Source of the DNA: Sphingobacteriales bacterium 44-15
GTDB taxonomy: Bacteria; Bacteroidota; Bacteroidia; Chitinophagales; Chitinophagaceae
DNA length: 64,000 nt
Assembly (NCBI GenBank): GCA_001899685.1
Contig: MKWG01000002.1
Coordinates: 353,953 to 417,952 of the forward strand
Direction of reading: 5' to 3'
Under the pieces are notes generated by a model, which was given only the letters and a program-made list of their open reading frames with translations, made no database searches and was not told the DNA's origin. Below, piece by piece: positions 50,478 through 59,815 of this stretch (position 1 is its first letter; each line of letters begins with the position of its first letter). The position numbers and the translations under genes were made by a program.

Positions 50478-52001
50478 ATGAAACAGAAAAAAGTAATACT
50501 TATCATCATGGATGGCTGGGGCCTTGGAAATGTAAGGTCAAGCGATGCCATACAAAATGCCAAAACTCCTTTTGTAAGCTCACTCTATAGTAAATACCCC
50601 AATACCACCCTCGTAACCTGCGGCGAAGACGTTGGATTGCCTGAAGGGCAAATGGGTAATAGTGAGGTGGGGCATCTCAACCTGGGCGCGGGGCGTATAG
50701 TATACCAGGAACTTCAACGCATCAACGTTGCCATCCGGAGCGGGGAATTTCAAAAAAATAAGATTTTGCTTGATGCCATTGCTTATGCAAGAGATAATAA
50801 TAAATCACTTCACCTGCTTGGACTGGTAAGTGATGGGGGCGTACATTCTCATATCAATCATCTTAAAGCCCTGGTAAGCGTATGTAAAGATCAGCAACTG
50901 AATAATGTTTTTGTGCATGCATTCACAGACGGACGTGATACAGATCCTAAAAGCGGGTTAGGCTTTCTAAAAGAGCTACAGAAGCACCTCGACGCTACTA
51001 CCGGGCAAATAGCCACCATTACCGGGCGGTATTATGCCATGGACCGCGATAAACGCTGGGAAAGAGTGAAGCTTGCTTATGATGCGCTCGTGCATGGGAT
51101 CGGGGAAAAAAGCAGTGATCTTATCGGCGCAGTAGAAAAGTCATACGCGGAAAATATTACTGATGAATTTATCAAGCCGATCATTAATGATACCATCACA
51201 GGAGACAAAGGGCAAATTAAAGATGGCGATGCAGTGATATGCTTCAATTTCAGGACAGACAGGTGCCGCGAAATAACAGAAGTGCTTACCCAGCAGGATA
51301 TGCCTAACTATGGGATGCATACGCTTCAGTTGCATTACACCACGATGACGGAATATGACAAAACATTTAAAAATGTCAACATCATTTTTGGCAATGATAA
51401 TCTTATACGCACGCTCGGAGAGGTGATTGAATCAGAAGGATTACAGCAAATACGGATTGCGGAAACGGAGAAATATCCTCACGTAACTTTCTTTTTCAGC
51501 GGGGGGCGGGAAAAGCCTTTCGAAGGCGAGACAAGGATCATGGCCGCTTCTCCCAAAGTGGCTACCTATGATCTGAAACCGGAGATGAGCGCCTTTGAGC
51601 TCACCGAAAAGCTGCTTCCGGAAATAAAAAGCCGGTCCGCCGCATTTATATGCCTCAATTTTGCCAATGCAGATATGGTGGGCCATACAGGAGTATGGGA
51701 CGCAGTGGTAAAAGCTGTAGAAACCGTTGACACCTGCGTGGAGAAGATAGTAACTACAGCCCTGGAAAATGACTATACCGTATTGCTGACAGCAGACCAC
51801 GGCAATGCCGATTATATCATCAATGAAGACGGCTCACCCAATACGGCTCATACCCTGAATCCTGTGCCTCTATTTATCATTGATAATCAATGGAAAGGAA
51901 AAGTAAGACCCGGGAAATTAGGAGACATAGCCCCCACTATCCTGAAAATAATGAATATTCCTGTACCTAAAGAAATGACCGGAAATGTGCTTGTAGATTA
52001 G
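50478..52001 (+). CDS. gpmI: 2,3-bisphosphoglycerate-independent phosphoglycerate mutase
   Basis: 507 residues, the usual length. It interconverts 3- and 2-phosphoglycerate with two Mn ions. Seen: Asp12 in IMDGWGLGN, the phospho-Ser62 in GNSEVGHLNLG, HIGKA-free VHSHINHLKAL and HAFTDGRDTDP segments in the phosphotransferase domain, NFRTDRCREI, and the metal ligands in NFANADMVGHTG and LTADHGNADYI. All catalytic motifs are intact. Its stop is followed by a 176-bp gap before the ECF sigma factor. Confidence 0.95.
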   Translation: MKQKKVILIIMDGWGLGNVRSSDAIQNAKTPFVSSLYSKYPNTTLVTCGEDVGLPEGQMGNSEVGHLNLGAGRIVYQELQRINVAIRSGEFQKNKILLDAIAYARDNNKSLHLLGLVSDGGVHSHINHLKALVSVCKDQQLNNVFVHAFTDGRDTDPKSGLGFLKELQKHLDATTGQIATITGRYYAMDRDKRWERVKLAYDALVHGIGEKSSDLIGAVEKSYAENITDEFIKPIINDTITGDKGQIKDGDAVICFNFRTDRCREITEVLTQQDMPNYGMHTLQLHYTTMTEYDKTFKNVNIIFGNDNLIRTLGEVIESEGLQQIRIAETEKYPHVTFFFSGGREKPFEGETRIMAASPKVATYDLKPEMSAFELTEKLLPEIKSRSAAFICLNFANADMVGHTGVWDAVVKAVETVDTCVEKIVTTALENDYTVLLTADHGNADYIINEDGSPNTAHTLNPVPLFIIDNQWKGKVRPGKLGDIAPTILKIMNIPVPKEMTGNVLVD

Positions 52002-52157
52002 ATTTTCCCCTGCAGGATAGTATAGCTTTTGGGTATATGCTTTACAATTTCTGCTCTCCATTCAGAGGCATACAAAGATTTGCTGCGGGATTAAGGGCAG
52101 AAAAATCAATTTTTTTGTGCCCGGGCAGCATTTTATATAAAGAAATTGTCTAAATTA

Positions 52158-52180
52158 CATGAAATCAACTTGATTTCATG
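52158..52180 (+). promoter_or_regulatory. Inverted repeat covering the sigma-factor start codon
   Basis: CATGAAATCA (52158-52167) and TGATTTCATG (52171-52180) are perfect 10-bp arms around a 3-base loop. The second arm contains the ATG at 52178-52180. In RNA this would hide the start codon; as DNA it would be a 23-bp operator-like site. Confidence 0.55.
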
Positions 52181-52753
52181 ACTGAAGAAGCAATGCTCAG
52201 GGGCTGCATCAGGAATGTTGCAGTTGCACAACAGGAACTATACTATACGTACAGCCCGCGCATGTTGTCGTTGTGTTATCGCTATGCGAAAAGCAGGGAG
52301 GATGCGGAGGATATGTTGCAGGAGGGCTTCATAAAGGTCTTTACACAGATAAAACAATTTCAGAACAGGGGTGCGCTTGAAGGATGGATCAGAAAAATCA
52401 TCGTTCATACCTGCATCAACAATCTGAAAAAGAATAAAAAATTTACCGAAAGCGTAGATCTTATACATGCATCGGGAGTGTATATTAGGGAAGAAACGAT
52501 CCCTTCCATTGTTCAGGCAAAACAGGTAGTGGAATGCATCAGGCTTCTGCCGATAGGATACAGAACCGTATTGAACCTGTACGCCATTGAGGGGTATTCG
52601 CACCGGGAAATTGCCGCAATGCTTGATATTGAAGAGAGCACAAGCCGCTCTCAGTATACAAGGGCAAAAGCTATGCTGGAAGATATTTTGCTAAAGAAAA
52701 ATATACTGCCGGAACATATCCGGAATATGGATCTTATGGCAGTTAACCCATAA
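52178..52753 (+). CDS. ECF-type RNA polymerase sigma factor
   Basis: 191 residues: region 2 (about 20-90: YYTYSPRMLSLCYRYAKSRE, DAEDMLQEGFIKVFTQI, and the GALEGWIRKIIVH helix) and region 4 (about 125-178: RLLPIGYRTVLNLYAIEGYS, HREIAAMLDIEESTSRSQYT). It has no region 3, as usual for group 4. The next gene, 65 bp on, encodes a membrane protein with a short cytoplasmic N-terminal part and may be its partner. The only ATG consistent with region 2 lies inside the inverted repeat at 52158-52180. Confidence 0.9.
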   Translation: MTEEAMLRGCIRNVAVAQQELYYTYSPRMLSLCYRYAKSREDAEDMLQEGFIKVFTQIKQFQNRGALEGWIRKIIVHTCINNLKKNKKFTESVDLIHASGVYIREETIPSIVQAKQVVECIRLLPIGYRTVLNLYAIEGYSHREIAAMLDIEESTSRSQYTRAKAMLEDILLKKNILPEHIRNMDLMAVNP

Positions 52754-52818
52754 CCAAAACAATGATTGTTTAACCAGGCTTTCGCTAACCATTATCTGAC
52801 AACGCCAAGGAACTGACT

Positions 52819-54174
52819 ATGGAGAGAAATATTCATACAGATGAATTTGAACGATTCCTCAGGGATAAAGCTGATCAGTATAAAGTTTACCCTTCAGACA
52901 AAATATGGAGTAACATCAACAGGTCAATACACCCAAGGAAAAAATGGCCTTACGCAGCATTAACCCTGTTTCTTTTATTAGGTACCGCTGTATTTATTGA
53001 CTACAATTCCTTCAACTACATAGTGCCCGGTAAGCAACCGCTGCTCGCTTACAGCCATAACAACCATACTATCCCGGCCGCTACACCATCATTTATTTCA
53101 GACCGGGATAAAAGCAAAAACAATTCTATATACCCTGCAGATGACTTATCACAGGCTACCGCTGCTATTACCGGATCAGATACAAAGCACTCATTGGGAC
53201 TGGCTAATATCAGCAAACTGCAACAGGAAACAAAGCCCGCTGACGGAAAAGCTCATTCTTCGAATGAAATAAGTACAACAACGGAACATATCACCGATAA
53301 CCAGGGCGATCTTTCTCCTTTGAATAGTTTAGTTGCGAGCTCAAATGCTTCTTCTTCTGATGCTAACAGCGGCGATGAAAAGGGTGATGATCTAACCAAT
53401 ACTAAAAAGAAGCTGTGGGGCGGCGAAGTATACAGACCCTCAAGATTTAAGTGGCAGTTGTCTTTTTCTCCAACCATCAGCTATAGAAGACTAACCAGTG
53501 GTATTGGCCAGATTACAGATGTTTTCAGGGGAGTTCCCTACAGCACCGTTCAGTCAAACACATCGGTAAATGACCTGGTTGCACACAAACCCGCCATCGG
53601 TGCTGAGGTTGGTGCAAGCCTTATTTATAAAGTTTCAAACAATTTTACTTTGAGAGGGGGGCTACAGCTAAACTACTCCAGGTATCAGTTAAACGCATAC
53701 AATTCAAAACCTGAAATTGCAACACTTGCACTTCATAACAAGAGGGGCGGAACGGATTCCGTGAATTTTGTTACCACCCTCGAAAATCATGAAGGGCATG
53801 GCTCTTCGTCCTCATGGCTGAATAATGAATATTTGCAGATATCATTGCCTGTTGGCTTTGAATGGAGTGTTTTAGGCAATGAAACGCTGAAATGGAATAT
53901 TGCCGCAAACGCACAACCTGTATATAATTTTGCCAATAATGTTTATCTCCTGTCCACTGATTTCAAATATTACGTTCAGGATCCTTCTCTTATACGTAAG
54001 TGGAATATCAACGCCGGTATAGAAACCTTTGTGTCTTATGATATGGGGTCATTTAAATGGCAGGTTGGTCCGCAATTGCGTTACCAGCTGATGTCAAGCT
54101 ACAAAAATGCTTATCCCATCAAAGAATACCTGGTTGACTTCGGCTTTAAAATTGGCGTAACCAAAACTTTTTAA
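52819..54174 (+). CDS. Sigma-linked membrane protein: cytoplasmic segment, one TM helix, outer-membrane barrel-like domain
   Basis: 451 residues. Residues 1-42 are charged (FERFLRDKADQYKVYPSDKI, WSNINRSIHPRKKW) and resemble the short anti-sigma-like head of many Bacteroidetes proteins next to ECF sigma genes. A TM helix follows (about 44-60), then a Ser/Asn/Asp-rich linker (about 80-200). Residues from about 205 alternate in strands (WQLSFSPTISYRRL, GAEVGASLIYKVSNNFTLRG, LNYSRYQLNAYN, WQVGPQLRYQLMSSY) and end in KTF, as in outer-membrane barrels. No N-terminal signal is present. A span across both membranes is implied. It may bind the sigma factor; this is inference. Confidence 0.7.
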   Translation: MERNIHTDEFERFLRDKADQYKVYPSDKIWSNINRSIHPRKKWPYAALTLFLLLGTAVFIDYNSFNYIVPGKQPLLAYSHNNHTIPAATPSFISDRDKSKNNSIYPADDLSQATAAITGSDTKHSLGLANISKLQQETKPADGKAHSSNEISTTTEHITDNQGDLSPLNSLVASSNASSSDANSGDEKGDDLTNTKKKLWGGEVYRPSRFKWQLSFSPTISYRRLTSGIGQITDVFRGVPYSTVQSNTSVNDLVAHKPAIGAEVGASLIYKVSNNFTLRGGLQLNYSRYQLNAYNSKPEIATLALHNKRGGTDSVNFVTTLENHEGHGSSSSWLNNEYLQISLPVGFEWSVLGNETLKWNIAANAQPVYNFANNVYLLSTDFKYYVQDPSLIRKWNINAGIETFVSYDMGSFKWQVGPQLRYQLMSSYKNAYPIKEYLVDFGFKIGVTKTF

Positions 54175-54264
54175 CCTTTTAAATTGTTGATGGATATCAT
54201 GGCTTATGCATAATATGCGTAGCTTCCTGCCGTTCTTGTTTCATTATTTTAATACCCAATACAA

Positions 54265-54852
54265 ATGAAGCTTTATTTCCTGCTATCCATAATATGGATG
54301 GGTGCCATACTATCCGGCTGCAAACCGGGAACTACTCCGGTGGCAGGATCAGGGCAGGACACATCCATTGTGCACAAGGAATATTACCCTATCACCGGGT
54401 ATATCAAAAGCCAGTTGCGTTGGCTGGACTCCGTTCCGCTTGCTGTAATAAAATATACAACCATAAATCTTCGTACCGATACTTCTATTATTGAAAAAAA
54501 AGATTTCAATGCAATAGCCGAACAGCTTTTTTTGCCTGATATAAGCGTATTGCCCCTGAAAGAGCAATATGATGAGGTTTCTTTTATAGATGCATCGCTT
54601 GGCACTATTTCACTCACTTACGCAGCAAGGAACGATACTGCATTGGTAAGAAAGGCAGATGTATTGCTCAACCAGACCAATACTGCGGTCAGCACCATTT
54701 ATATTGAAAAAGCATCACAGCTATCTGGCAGTACGGTTACCCAAAAAATATTATGGACTGCAAATAAAAGCTGCCTTGTCACGACTATCACTCAGAAAAC
54801 CGGTACACCTGAAAGGGTAACAGAAGAAAGATATGTGTGGGATGACCGGTAA
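54265..54852 (+). CDS. Hypothetical lipoprotein downstream of the sigma/barrel pair
   Basis: 195 residues with a lipobox ILSGC (Cys19). The mature part begins KPGTTPVAG and continues with a TINLRTDTSIIEKKDFNAIA segment and a C-terminal beta stretch (KILWTANKSCLVTTITQKTG). No family is recognised. It lies 90 bp after the barrel gene on the same strand and probably belongs to the sigma-linked set, forming an outer-membrane complex; that is inference. Confidence 0.7.
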   Translation: MKLYFLLSIIWMGAILSGCKPGTTPVAGSGQDTSIVHKEYYPITGYIKSQLRWLDSVPLAVIKYTTINLRTDTSIIEKKDFNAIAEQLFLPDISVLPLKEQYDEVSFIDASLGTISLTYAARNDTALVRKADVLLNQTNTAVSTIYIEKASQLSGSTVTQKILWTANKSCLVTTITQKTGTPERVTEERYVWDDR

Positions 54853-55167: not shown

Positions 55168-56982
55168 ATGACTTCAGAAGACTTTCAGCAAATAGCCAAT
55201 ACCATACCTTCACAGCCTGGTATCTACAAGTATTATAATGAAAAGAGTGAGCTGCTGTATGTAGGCAAGGCTAAGAACCTCCGGAAAAGGGTCAGCTCAT
55301 ACTTCAATAAAGGATTTACTAATTACAAGACCCACGAGCTTGTACAGCGCATCCGCCATATTGAGTTCACTATCGTCAATTCTGAGCAGGATGCTTTCCT
55401 GCTGGAAAATAACCTGATCAAGCAATTTCAGCCAAAATATAATATCAATCTTAAAGATGATAAAAGCTATCCTTATATCGTCATTAAAAATGAAGATTTC
55501 CCAAGGATCTTTCTTACACGGCGAAAAATTGATGATGGCTCCGAATATTTGGGACCGTTCACTTCTGTAGGTAAAGTAAGGGAACTGCTTGATTTTATCC
55601 GGCAAAACATACCTCTCCGCACCTGCAAGCTTAACCTTACTCCCCAGAACATCCGGAAAAAGAAATTTAAAGTTTGCCTGGAATATCATCTTGGCAATTG
55701 CAAAGGCCCATGCGAAGGTTTGCAAACCGCAGAAGATTACCGGGAGGGACTTTTGCAGATCAAGAATCTTTTAAAAGGCAACCTGTCGCCTGTGCTCAGC
55801 AGCTTCAGGGAGACCATGAAAACGCTTGCAGAAAATATGGAGTTTGAAAAAGCGGAAATACTTAAGAAGAAGATTGAACACCTGCAGGAATACCGCGCCA
55901 AATCCTCCATTATCAACAGCAATCTTGGCGATATAGATGTCTTTTCCATTTTGCAGGAAGGAGATATTGCCTATGTGAATTACCTGATGGTTCAAAATGG
56001 CATGATCGTCCAGACGCATACCCTTACTTTTGAAAAAAAGCTGGAAGAACCCGCCGAAGAAATAATGGCGTTTGCCATAGCAACCATCCGGGAAACATTC
56101 AACAGCAGCGCCAAAGAGCTTGTGCTACCTTTTCCTGTTCATTTTCCGCAATCTGATATATCAGTAACTATCCCCAAAGCCGGGGACAAGAAAAAACTCC
56201 TGGAGCTTTCTGAAAAGAATGTCAACTATTTCAAAGAAGAGCTGAGAAAACGGAAAATGCTGCAACTGGACGGAAAATCTGCAGCAGAAAAAGAAAAAGT
56301 GCTGGATCAGTTGCAGAACGACCTCAACCTTGCAGAAAGACCGGTACATATAGAATGCTTTGACAATTCTAATTTCCAGGGCAGCTTCCCGGTATCGGCT
56401 ATGGTGTGCTTTAAAATGGGAGTTCCCAGCAAAAATGATTACCGGCATTTTAATGTGAAAACTGTTGAGGGGATAAATGATTTTGCGACAATGAAAGAAG
56501 CGGTATTTCGCAGGTATAAAAGATTATCAGCGGAAGAAAAGCCATTACCGCAGCTCGTAATTATTGACGGGGGTAAAGGTCAGCTCGGGGCTGCTATTGA
56601 AGCCATACATGAACTTGGTCTTGAGGGTAAGATGACGCTTGTCGGGCTTGCAAAGAACGAAGAAGAGATTTTCTTCAGCGGCGATAAGCAATCTGTAAAG
56701 CTTCCCTGGGATAGCGACAGCCTGAAACTGCTAAGACAGATCAGGGATGAAGTGCACCGTTTCGGTATCACTTTTCACCGCCAAAAAAGAAGCAAAGGGA
56801 CTTTCAAAAATGAACTGGAAGCGATTCCCGGCATTGGAAGAGCAACAGTAGATATATTATTAAAAGAGTTTAAATCCATAAAGAAGATCCGGTCATTGCC
56901 CGAAGAAGCTATCACGAAAATAGTGGGACAATCAAAAGCGAAGATCCTGCAGGCTTATTTCAGCGGACATCCCGCTAATTGA
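55168..56982 (+). CDS. uvrC: Excinuclease ABC subunit C
   Basis: 604 residues, the usual length. UvrC makes both cuts in nucleotide excision repair. Seen: the GIY-YIG domain (GIYKYYNEKSELLYVGKAKN, about 18-90), a four-cysteine region ending CLEYHLGNCKGPCEGL, the UVR coiled coil (about 200-240: ENMEFEKAEILKKKIEHL), the RNase H-like domain with ECFDNSNFQGS (about 394) and a C-terminal helix-hairpin-helix pair (AIPGIGRATVDILLKEFKSI). All catalytic features appear intact. It faces the gld genes, with terminators in between. Confidence 0.95.
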   Translation: MTSEDFQQIANTIPSQPGIYKYYNEKSELLYVGKAKNLRKRVSSYFNKGFTNYKTHELVQRIRHIEFTIVNSEQDAFLLENNLIKQFQPKYNINLKDDKSYPYIVIKNEDFPRIFLTRRKIDDGSEYLGPFTSVGKVRELLDFIRQNIPLRTCKLNLTPQNIRKKKFKVCLEYHLGNCKGPCEGLQTAEDYREGLLQIKNLLKGNLSPVLSSFRETMKTLAENMEFEKAEILKKKIEHLQEYRAKSSIINSNLGDIDVFSILQEGDIAYVNYLMVQNGMIVQTHTLTFEKKLEEPAEEIMAFAIATIRETFNSSAKELVLPFPVHFPQSDISVTIPKAGDKKKLLELSEKNVNYFKEELRKRKMLQLDGKSAAEKEKVLDQLQNDLNLAERPVHIECFDNSNFQGSFPVSAMVCFKMGVPSKNDYRHFNVKTVEGINDFATMKEAVFRRYKRLSAEEKPLPQLVIIDGGKGQLGAAIEAIHELGLEGKMTLVGLAKNEEEIFFSGDKQSVKLPWDSDSLKLLRQIRDEVHRFGITFHRQKRSKGTFKNELEAIPGIGRATVDILLKEFKSIKKIRSLPEEAITKIVGQSKAKILQAYFSGHPAN

Positions 56983-57199: not shown

Positions 57200-58249
57200 T
57201 TAATATGACCAGAGATCCTGCTCGTAGTTGAAGATCTTGTCTTTAATATTTTCCCCTTCCAGCAACATCAGTATGTTATTATTTGGATATTGCTGTTTAA
57301 GGTATAAATCGTATGGGTTTTCTAAAGTAGATTTCACCACATAACTACCGAAGAAGCGGCTTTCAAACAATTCTTCCCAGCTCATCCTTGCCCCAAAGTT
57401 TTTGCCATTATATACTTCATACTTGGCAAGCGCCGGGCGCATATCAGGATAATAAACCCAGAAGATAGGAGCCGAACCGATTGGAGTGCCGGTAACTTTA
57501 TCAAAATAGGTCTTTACCGGGGCAATACCAAGGATCCTTACATACATCCTGCTGGATTCCTTATCAAATACCCATTCTTCTTTTATCCTGAATTTAGTAA
57601 TAGCATCCATATTGAACTCTTCACATATTACAGACTCCTTCATAATACCTTTAGACAAAGTAGGATCTTTTTCCAGGTCGGGCACCATTACCGTATCGCA
57701 GGAGCCGGCAAGCTTGGCACCTATCTGCTCGAGCGTCATTGGTGTGGTAAACCTGTCGTCAACAGACGCATCAAAAGCTGTTACTTCACCACTTTTAATA
57801 GTGTTCAGTAAAATAGCGATGAAACGCTGGTTACCGTTATCCTCATCGGCCGTATACCGGAAAGGCAGATTGATCTTTTCCCTGATATCAATCTCTCTCC
57901 ACACTTTTTCCCTGTAGATGGCATCATCTTCGCGGATATTCTCGTAAGGCAATGGCGTACGATCCTTCACCAGGTTCATCTCTATCGCATTGTCGTTGCG
58001 AAGCGACTTTCGTATGGTATCCATTTTAATAGGATCCTTGGGCGCGGCTTTCACCACCAGGGTATCCTGCTTGGCTACATTAAGGTTTTCGTCTGCCACG
58101 TTAGCCTGCGTCTTTTTGGTAGTGGCTTTCTTTTTAGCTGTGGTAGTGGTCTTCCTTGTGCTCTTTTTTCTTGTCTGAGCATCCGACACACTCACTGCCA
58201 TTCCAAAAGCAGCTACCAGTAAAGCATATTTCGCGAATTTCCATTTCAT
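57200..58249 (-). CDS. gldN: Gliding motility / type IX secretion protein GldN
   Basis: 349 residues. A signal peptide (about 1-25, ending VSDAQ) is followed by a Lys/Thr-rich region (TRKKSTRKTTTTAKKKATTK) typical of several GldN/PorN proteins, then the family core (DAIYREKVWREIDIREKINL, PIFWVYYPDMRPALAKYEVY, SWEELFESRFFGSYVVKST). GldN/PorN is a periplasmic partner of the GldK ring. ATG 58249 is taken, since the TTG at 58255 would weaken the signal. It is the last gene of gldKLMN, 36 bp past gldM. Confidence 0.93.
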   Translation of the reverse strand: MKWKFAKYALLVAAFGMAVSVSDAQTRKKSTRKTTTTAKKKATTKKTQANVADENLNVAKQDTLVVKAAPKDPIKMDTIRKSLRNDNAIEMNLVKDRTPLPYENIREDDAIYREKVWREIDIREKINLPFRYTADEDNGNQRFIAILLNTIKSGEVTAFDASVDDRFTTPMTLEQIGAKLAGSCDTVMVPDLEKDPTLSKGIMKESVICEEFNMDAITKFRIKEEWVFDKESSRMYVRILGIAPVKTYFDKVTGTPIGSAPIFWVYYPDMRPALAKYEVYNGKNFGARMSWEELFESRFFGSYVVKSTLENPYDLYLKQQYPNNNILMLLEGENIKDKIFNYEQDLWSY

Positions 58250-58291
58250 GGTCAAAAGTGTTTGTATCTAAACAGAAAGGTATAAAAACTT

Positions 58292-59815
58292 TTATCTTAA
58301 GATATACGACAACGGTCTCAATGTAATGGTTCTTCCATCAGGTCCGCGCGCTTTGATATTATCTATATAAACGCCTTTTCCGGGCTTCAGATTGCTTACT
58401 ACGGTAGCGGCATTACCCGTCCAGCGTGCGCCATTGTTGGCAATCGGATTATAATCTGCAGCGCCCAGGTCAGCAATAGTATAACTCAATACTTCGTACA
58501 GTGCTTCGAATTCAGAATTCTGTAATACTGCCCTTACACCACCCATTGCTTTGAACTGTGCAGAAGATACCTGCCCCATCTCAAGGTTACCTACCATTGC
58601 TGTAGGCGGAGGCAGTTGTTTCACACGGAAAGATACTTTACCGGCAGGCTTACCGTCTACTATTACACTAACATCAGCGGTACCGGGTTCTTTTGGTTTA
58701 GCAATGTATTTGCTGCCACCGGCTTTGCTGACACTACCGTTATTGATAGAAGCGCTAACTTTTTCACTTCCTGCACCTGCAGTGATGGTCAATGGGTTCT
58801 CCACACCAATGTACAGTACATTCATTTTATCAGCCATTACCGCAACACCGGAAGGCTGTCCTACTGTATAATCAATAGTTTTAGTGATCGTTTTCTCTTC
58901 GCCGGTGTTAGGATCAGGATATTTCACATCCACTTTCACACTATGTGCTCCGGAACCGCCGGCAGGCATCTTAAGTTCCGCTACACCATTTTCACCAACA
59001 GGAACGGGGCTCCCATTCACAAACACCTTAGGCTTAACGCTTGCATTGAATGCTCCCAAACCAGCTTTTAATTCGAGGTTTTCCCCGGGCATCAGGTATG
59101 TGGAGTTTGTTCCAACCATCGGCTCAAACTTATCATAGATAACTTTTACATCGCCGATCTTTTTGAAGCAGAAAGAAGCCACTTTATTTTCGGTATTCTT
59201 CACATCGTTCTGGAACTTACTAAGGATGGTAAGCGCAGCAATAGTGGGCGTCATGTGAAAATAAGCGTCTGTCCAGCTCTGGTTGGTATTACCGGCTTCA
59301 GAAACCGGCTTTTCCAGGTTGATAGGAAGACTGTGGTCAAATTCTTTTGCAATTTCCGGATCTATAGCCAGCACATCTTTTTTGTACTGATCCAAAGCGG
59401 TGCGAAGCTTTTCACCTTCTCCGTTGGTAGCCATCAACCTTGTAGCGGCATCCAGGTTCTCCACCTTAAAAGTAGTATCGCCTTTTTCAGGATTATAGCC
59501 GCTTTCTCTTTTAAGCTTATCCTTCAGATCGTCAATATAAGAGGACATCTTAGAGGACAGCTCTTTTATCTGATCAGCCTTAGGTTTCCATATTGCCGCT
59601 TTTTCACGGGTTTTGGGATCTTCAAGGCTGCTCTGAAATGCTGTATATATTTCGCCTGAGGCCGCCGAAAGCGTGCCATTGGATTTATCCAGGCTGTTAT
59701 TTACTGTTTTGAAGGCATTGATAATTTCAGCAGACACATTCAGTGCAAGCAAGGCTGTAAGCACCAAATACATCATGTTGATCATCTTCTGCCGTGGCTC
59801 TTTAGGTAGTGCCAT
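58292..59815 (-). CDS. gldM: Gliding motility / type IX secretion motor protein GldM
   Basis: 507 residues. MALPKEPRQKMINMMYLVLT starts the short cytoplasmic tail and the single TM helix (about 12-32), which joins GldL helices to form the proton-driven motor. The long periplasmic part contains the four elongated domains, including GMNSTYLMPGE-like GTNSTYLMPGENLELKAGLG, and ends in TITLRPLSYILR. Length is normal. It lies 78 bp after gldL. Confidence 0.95.
   Translation of the reverse strand: MALPKEPRQKMINMMYLVLTALLALNVSAEIINAFKTVNNSLDKSNGTLSAASGEIYTAFQSSLEDPKTREKAAIWKPKADQIKELSSKMSSYIDDLKDKLKRESGYNPEKGDTTFKVENLDAATRLMATNGEGEKLRTALDQYKKDVLAIDPEIAKEFDHSLPINLEKPVSEAGNTNQSWTDAYFHMTPTIAALTILSKFQNDVKNTENKVASFCFKKIGDVKVIYDKFEPMVGTNSTYLMPGENLELKAGLGAFNASVKPKVFVNGSPVPVGENGVAELKMPAGGSGAHSVKVDVKYPDPNTGEEKTITKTIDYTVGQPSGVAVMADKMNVLYIGVENPLTITAGAGSEKVSASINNGSVSKAGGSKYIAKPKEPGTADVSVIVDGKPAGKVSFRVKQLPPPTAMVGNLEMGQVSSAQFKAMGGVRAVLQNSEFEALYEVLSYTIADLGAADYNPIANNGARWTGNAATVVSNLKPGKGVYIDNIKARGPDGRTITLRPLSYILR

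Follow-up and report, generated by a model that had tools for sequence, protein, structure and literature searches.

Described trans-envelope anti-sigma factors and the locus of bacterium 44-15

The Dma proteins, a family found in Bacteroidota only, consist of a head, a transmembrane (TM) helix, a tether and a barrel in this order, and adjoin sigma factors of the extracytoplasmic function (ECF) type ECF21 (PMC13088901). In Dma3 the sigma domain itself lies in the N terminus, the Dma2 operon is described as confined to Bacteroides thetaiotaomicron and its close relatives, and in one published relative a deletion of the anti-sigma gene has an effect that depends on the sigma gene (PMC13088901). 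An anti-sigma factor of Phocaeicola vulgatus was predicted to span the periplasm and to carry an outer-membrane barrel, and the disruption of a relative was read by the authors as freeing the sigma factor (PMC9308784). Reo is described as extending through all five compartments, from cytoplasm to cell surface, and the EcfO-Reo regulon includes nigD lipoprotein genes (PMC13114119). ECF-paired proteins of this architecture are therefore already published, in three reports (PMC13088901, PMC9308784, PMC13114119). Here we describe a locus of comparable layout in Sphingobacteriales bacterium 44-15 (Bacteroidota, order Chitinophagales, family Chitinophagaceae), consisting of genes for an ECF sigma factor, a putative Dma-type anti-sigma factor and a lipoprotein. 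It lies in a window of 64,000 nucleotides, i.e. the whole stretch of DNA analysed (assembly GCA_001899685.1, contig MKWG01000002.1, positions 353,953 to 417,952 of the forward strand), and all coordinates below are those of the window.

By their descriptions, Dma1/Das1 and Dma2/Das2 of B. thetaiotaomicron share with what is predicted for this locus an N-terminal sigma-binding domain, a single TM helix, a long disordered tether, a barrel and an adjacent ECF gene (PMC13088901). In EcfO-Reo of Bacteroides fragilis and P. vulgatus, the ECF gene likewise precedes that of a large anti-sigma factor, which combines a TM helix in the inner membrane with a barrel in the outer one (PMC9308784). Unlike Dma1 and Dma2, the present pair belongs to another family of the phylum, has a gpmI-linked lipoprotein gene downstream and is preceded by a GCAGC..GTCTAA promoter-like motif. 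Unlike EcfO-Reo with its nigD genes, the lone strict promoter match of the genome is at the sigma operon itself. In these reports the Dma/Reo layout is studied in gut bacteria of the genera Bacteroides and Phocaeicola; here, Dma-type proteins were found to be common, in 101 of 146 genomes of another family, Chitinophagaceae (E <= 1e-5, own genome included).

We consider it likely that the locus is an autoregulated pair of an ECF sigma factor and a trans-envelope anti-sigma factor of the Das-Dma and EcfO-Reo kind. With its head (residues 1-42), the anti-sigma factor would bind the sigma factor at the inner membrane; its linker, which is predicted to be disordered, would cross the periplasm, and an 8-stranded barrel in the outer membrane would act as the sensor. 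A disturbance of the outer membrane, be it barrel misassembly, damage to lipid or lipopolysaccharide, or a ligand, would then cause the head to release the sigma factor in a conformational or proteolytic step. The freed sigma factor would transcribe its own operon from GCAGC-N18-GTCTAA, i.e. the genes for the sigma factor, the Dma-type protein and, usually in the family, the downstream lipoprotein.

In the FecI/FecR/FecA system, an outer-membrane barrel signals to an ECF sigma factor via an inner-membrane protein. In contrast, sensor and anti-sigma factor would be fused in one chain here, and no separate FecR-like protein or TonB-dependent receptor adjoins the sigma gene, the neighbours being gpmI, the Dma-like protein, the lipoprotein and uvrC. 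In the RseA/RseB system, the state of the outer membrane controls an inner-membrane anti-sigma factor; RseB has a LolA-like fold, and RseA has no barrel.

Gene order and domain architecture

Three co-directional open reading frames (ORFs) on the plus strand occupy positions 52178-54852 between gpmI and uvrC, as had been stated in the initial annotation. The first (52178-52753, 191 aa) encodes a Das-like ECF sigma factor, which matched the Pfam domains Sigma70_r2 (PF04542, 4.6e-17) and Sigma70_r4_2 (PF08281, 8.6e-14) and the NCBIfam model TIGR02937 (1.6e-24). Among the 25 NCBIfam matches listed, the superfamily alone was above its cut-off. The Bacteroidetes subfamily TIGR02985, which we take to be the FecI-like sigma factors, was not reached (77 bits versus a cut-off of 126.4). 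The second ORF (52819-54174, 451 aa) encodes the putative Dma-type trans-envelope anti-sigma factor, and the third (54265-54852, 195 aa) encodes the lipoprotein.

The comparison of this order covered 103 loci of relatives: the remaining family genomes with a match contributed 99 and further contigs four; one genome (G041) was left out as it had no listed place. The four named relatives found are two Chitinophagaceae metagenome-assembled genomes (MAGs), one Terrimonas strain and one Bacteroidetes MAG, and the family is accordingly taken as Chitinophagaceae or a group near it. The sigma gene was directly upstream in 102 of the 103 loci, the single miss (L087) being a contig end, and the lipoprotein gene was downstream in 87 of 103, with two of the 16 misses (L040 and L095) at contig ends. 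Since the gene order is conserved among the relatives, chance is very unlikely, and the three-gene observation is real.

The second protein was aligned with its 103 relatives (n = 104). The head (52819-52944) contains the motif P25-S26-D-K-I-W30-x-x-I33, and its best conserved positions are P25 (95%), S26 (88%), W30 (99%), I33 (86%) and H38 (87%), followed by W43 (85%). Of the WSNI motif highlighted in the initial annotation, W30 and I33 were thus borne out by conservation, but S31 and N32 are unconserved. Residues 43-61 (52945-53001) form a predicted inner-membrane helix: the strongest hydrophobic window begins at residues 45-49 in 79 of the 104 proteins, and in 78 of the 104 the residues that precede it carry more positive charge than those that come next. 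A cleaved signal peptide at this site is unlikely, since conservation within the N-terminal half peaks in the 42 residues that lead up to the helix. Residues 62-205 (53002-53433) make up the predicted disordered periplasmic linker, which is unconserved, rich in polar residues and of variable length (mean 162, range 118-262 residues). At approximately 0.36 nm per residue, 118 residues correspond to about 42 nm and the periplasm is 20-30 nm wide; therefore, even the shortest linker could reach beyond the width of the periplasm.

Conservation returns in the C-terminal part, over most of residues 211-446, where an 8-stranded outer-membrane beta-barrel is predicted (residues 206-451, 53434-54171). 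Residues 237-422 matched OMP_b-brl_2 (PF13568), as did 25 of the 45 aligned members scanned. The AlphaFold2 model, built from five sequences, had three N-terminal helices (residues 7-20, 26-35 and 43-57), left the linker unstructured and placed eight strands between residues 210 and 449. DSSP assigned nine segments to this part, of which 334-342 and 345-353 were counted as a single kinked strand. The closest solved structures were 8-stranded outer-membrane barrels, namely NspA (Z 11.6; 152 aligned residues, 3.4 A), PagL (Z 11.4), OprF (Z 11.1) and OmpA (Z 10.8), and Foldseek also matched OmpA (E 7.9e-5). A sequence search of the PDB with the Dma-type protein gave just weak matches to designed Cake proteins. 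A soluble C terminus is contradicted by the barrel model, which is itself of low confidence. Taken together, the alignment, the model and the barrel matches are in line with the topology that had been proposed for this protein, i.e. a fused chain with a charged head, one TM helix, a disordered linker and a barrel, all by prediction.

The ECF gene goes with the head

The lack of a recurring pairing with ECF genes had been named in the initial annotation as a refutation, and the neighbourhood counts contradict such a lack. With a head-only profile, an ECF gene was scored when it lay upstream on the same strand within 300 bases. All 102 family heads had one, as did all 20 heads of more distant loci (picked by the Dma profile), all 27 head ORFs of the phylum set (26 of 30 loci) and both heads of the own genome. 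After the removal of four duplicate loci (L257, L258, L259 and L260), there were 147 distinct heads, all with an ECF gene upstream. Of the 296 genomes sampled across the phylum, 89 gave a match, some via the barrel only.

PF13568 barrels without a head behaved differently. The own genome has 14 PF13568 loci, 13 of them above the cut-off, and 12 of the 14 are headless; near these 12 the sigma profile matched nothing on the same strand, although an ECF gene lies on the opposite strand at one of them (L114). In the phylum set, four loci are headless (L273, L276, L277 and L279), and these have no ECF neighbour either. Since the headed loci examined all have an ECF gene and the 16 headless ones have no same-strand one, the ECF gene goes with the head and not with the barrel.

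The other headed locus of the own genome is a second sigma-Dma pair (G000:C11:483388-484938, L116/L258). In one phylum genome (L284), two headed sigma-Dma pairs stand in tandem, the second being incomplete because the sequence fetched ends within it.

Fused and split layouts

In 22 loci of the phylum (L280, L281 and L317-L336), an ECF sigma gene is followed by a gene for a head-TM-linker-tail protein and then by a separate gene for a barrel-like secreted protein. This set was taken from 24 heads found by eye on ORFs of fewer than 300 residues among the phylum matches listed (20 fetched, together with L280 and L281). Because the heads were picked by size, the missing barrel on the head ORF is due to the selection, but the neighbouring genes are not. 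An ECF gene was directly upstream in 22 of 22 (two of these heads are already among the 147). The head proteins passed the TM threshold in 21 of 22 cases and fitted the head-motif pattern in 21 of 22; beyond the TM helix they consist of a low-complexity linker and a short tail. The next gene was on the same strand at a distance of -20 to 132 bases in all 22, and its product had a hydrophobic, signal-peptide-like N terminus in all 22 by a crude hydropathy threshold. Thirteen of the 22 products matched PF13568 and one matched PF13505, so that Pfam gives independent support for a barrel in 13 to 14 of them; those at L281, L323, L334 and L335 run past the end of the sequence fetched.

The split and fused heads were found to be homologous (hhalign 95.6%, E 1.2e-8, 48 columns). 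The similarity of the barrels was weak (hhalign 47.5%, E 1.9e-4), and among the 22 proteins after the split heads the family barrel profile found none and the paralogues' profile two. A count of 21 barrels next to 21 split heads is circular, as one profile was built from those same proteins. Conversely, a separate barrel gene next to a fused head was found in 0 of 99, 0 of 20 and 0 of 11 fused loci with downstream room. We lean slightly towards the view that the fused and split forms are one machine in two interchangeable layouts, built on a portable sigma-binding head (P-x3-5-W-x2-I). If so, the split tail would dock on its barrel, and the signal path could be tested by cutting or joining the chains. 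Among the titles and abstract beginnings listed by literature searches, none concerned the split form, although this counts only weakly as a sign that it is unreported; the founding 2024 PNAS paper lay outside these searches. Searches for the Dma family in Chitinophaga and for ECF promoters of the phylum brought up no paper.

The natural split forms, together with the processing known for FecR-type anti-sigma factors, suggest an alternative in which a periplasmic cut of the exported chain leaves the head and the barrel to act as two proteins, with the split form as the genetic equivalent. We regard this as unlikely, given that the fused order is kept, with all 102 family head ORFs also matching a barrel profile, and that the linker has no conserved cleavage-like site. 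In the phylum set, 15 of 19 fused heads had a barrel-profile match and four had none.

The lipoprotein is a candidate output of the operon

The signal sequence of the lipoprotein ends in a cysteine (C19) that is invariant in 51 aligned sequences, its own included. The family has no Pfam name; a Pfam scan gave nothing credible, and a sequence search of the PDB gave nothing useful. Its AlphaFold2 model (five sequences; mean predicted local distance difference test score, pLDDT, 77) was weakly LolA-like, with Z 6.7 to 4mxt and Z 5.7 to RseB. All Z values were below 8, too low for the resemblance to RseB to mean much, and an RseB or LolA identity is not claimed; that no closer match turned up is no proof in itself.

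The initial annotation suggested that the lipoprotein may complete the complex. Such a three-part complex, in which the lipoprotein binds the barrel or the linker in a control of the RseB/MucB type, would agree with the weak fold resemblance, with the frequent position of the gene after the Dma gene and with its occurrence in the family. When the order was searched, the lipoprotein profile (51 sequences) matched 121 of 248 genomes and the Dma profile 75 of 248; Dma matches at E < 1e-20 were confined to the family, and in 24 genomes outside it the matches were weak and mostly via the head. Among the 60 family genomes in both searches, with the weak matches in G011 and G349 scored as absent, the lipoprotein was present in 48 of the 49 with a Dma-type protein. 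It was also present, though, in 8 of the 11 without one, and in 65 of 188 genomes of the order's other families. Inspection of 39 of these 65 genomes, mostly the better-scoring ones, showed gpmI directly upstream of the lipoprotein gene in 33, only uvrC in two, neither in four and a Dma gene in none. Within the family, 14 loci with downstream room had no lipoprotein gene beside the Dma gene, and in one genome (G064) it is encoded elsewhere, away from Dma (L224). Since the lipoprotein outside the family mostly follows gpmI without a sigma or Dma gene, it is not a tied partner, and a three-part complex appears improbable. An obligate third component was given up as the default reading despite a first co-occurrence of 31 in 33, the lipoprotein family being found beside gpmI or uvrC without sigma and Dma genes. 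Rather than an obligate partner, the lipoprotein would be an output of the operon, i.e. a candidate target gene. Members of the lipoprotein family also occur at L132-L138 and L197-L236, and in the order they mostly stand after gpmI or before uvrC.

In the window, gpmI (2,3-bisphosphoglycerate-independent phosphoglycerate mutase; 50478-52001, plus strand; TIGR01307, 1.6e-205) is the left neighbour of the three genes and uvrC (55168-56982, plus strand; TIGR00194, 2.2e-152) is the right one. In 70 family Dma loci (L035-L104), a same-strand uvrC was within the fetched flank in 58 of the 65 with room. Of nine family loci with the lipoprotein gene away from Dma, uvrC adjoins in five, one of which also has gpmI. 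The simplest history would be that a sigma-Dma pair was inserted into a gpmI-lipoprotein-uvrC cluster, by which the lipoprotein gene was put under a new promoter. Nevertheless, gpmI was within the fetched flank in just 17 of 68 of the family Dma loci L035-L104, and the support for this history comes mainly from the other families and from one family locus (L218).

A promoter-like motif precedes the sigma gene

A predicted ECF promoter, GCAGC-N18-GTCTAA, lies upstream of the sigma gene (52125-52153, plus strand). GTCTAA is a common ECF -10 element. The motif was searched in 103 upstream regions, a set that differs from the 103 relatives' loci in that it consists of the own region, those of 100 relatives, and L130 and L131. 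The strict form GCAGC-N17/N18-GTCTAA was present in 45 of 103 regions (N17 in 34, N18 in 11) and the relaxed form GCAGC-N15..18-TGTC in 83 of 103; in the controls, the strict form gave 0.02 with shuffles and 0.015 with Markov sequences, and the relaxed form 0.12 with the latter. Because the motif is conserved upstream of the sigma gene, autoregulation is predicted. The downstream genes may be transcribed together with the sigma gene. A terminator and promoter scan and an RNA fold of the gap between the Dma and lipoprotein genes gave no plus-strand terminator-like site there.

In the 6.0 Mb genome, GCAGCN{16,19}TGTCTAA had one match, at the sigma operon, and a reversed-pattern control also had one; with N{16,18}, there was one match versus none in the reversed control. 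The promoter search gave no sign of a large regulon in the own genome, its sole strict match being at the operon of the sigma factor. At least one strict match was found in 105 of the 146 family genomes. Upstream of the second sigma-Dma pair and several of its relatives, GCAAC and TGTCA were seen by eye in place of GCAGC and GTCTAA, and the two pairs may accordingly be autoregulated with distinct specificities, as far as these sequences suggest.

Just past the -10 element, a perfect 10-base inverted repeat, CATGAAATCA-ACT-TGATTTCATG, ends in the start codon of the sigma gene (52158-52180, plus strand). Near relatives have a clean inverted repeat in their leaders, others have a hairpin of another sequence, and many have a linear GGCAACCAAA-like sequence. 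Hairpins were found in 52 of 91 leaders, with a shuffle p <= 0.05 in 29 of 91 and a median p of 0.19. The inverted repeat is possibly a 5' hairpin or an operator.

Inhibitor or activator, and points against the proposal

Adjacency cannot separate an inhibitor from an activator, and positive roles are known for some FecR-like partners. The head could thus be a co-activator needed by the sigma factor. This is very unlikely in view of the published relatives, for which it is reported that the effect of the anti-sigma deletion is sigma-dependent (PMC13088901) and that disruption was read as freeing the sigma factor (PMC9308784). Least likely of all is an ordinary outer-membrane barrel with a long signal peptide and a coincidentally adjacent sigma gene: PF13568 barrels are indeed common, as the 14 loci of the own genome illustrate, but the first 42 residues are conserved and, among the loci examined, it is precisely the headless barrels that lack an ECF gene on the same strand.

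Several findings weigh against an autoregulated trans-envelope pair. The PF13568 match (5.4e-6) scored 27 bits, exactly the curated cut-off, which was barely reached. The AlphaFold2 model of the Dma-type protein had a mean pLDDT of 39 and approximately 40-72 in the strand blocks. The promoter motif, strict or relaxed, was not found in 20 of the 103 upstream regions. The control scan for ECF genes used a profile built from the relatives of the own sigma factor, which a very distant ECF could escape. Finally, a private circuit, with the own operon as the whole regulon, is only a possibility in view of the strict matches that relatives have away from the operon, from which no regulon emerged.

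With the head, the motif and the split counterpart, the route of signalling from a barrel in the outer membrane to a sigma factor in the cytoplasm becomes directly testable: the short head predicts the ECF partner, the promoter-like motif offers a ready reporter, and the split counterpart occurs naturally. What merits further study is the promoter and the contrast between the fused and split forms.

Further along the window, just past uvrC, gldN and gldM of type IX secretion are encoded on the minus strand (57200-59815).

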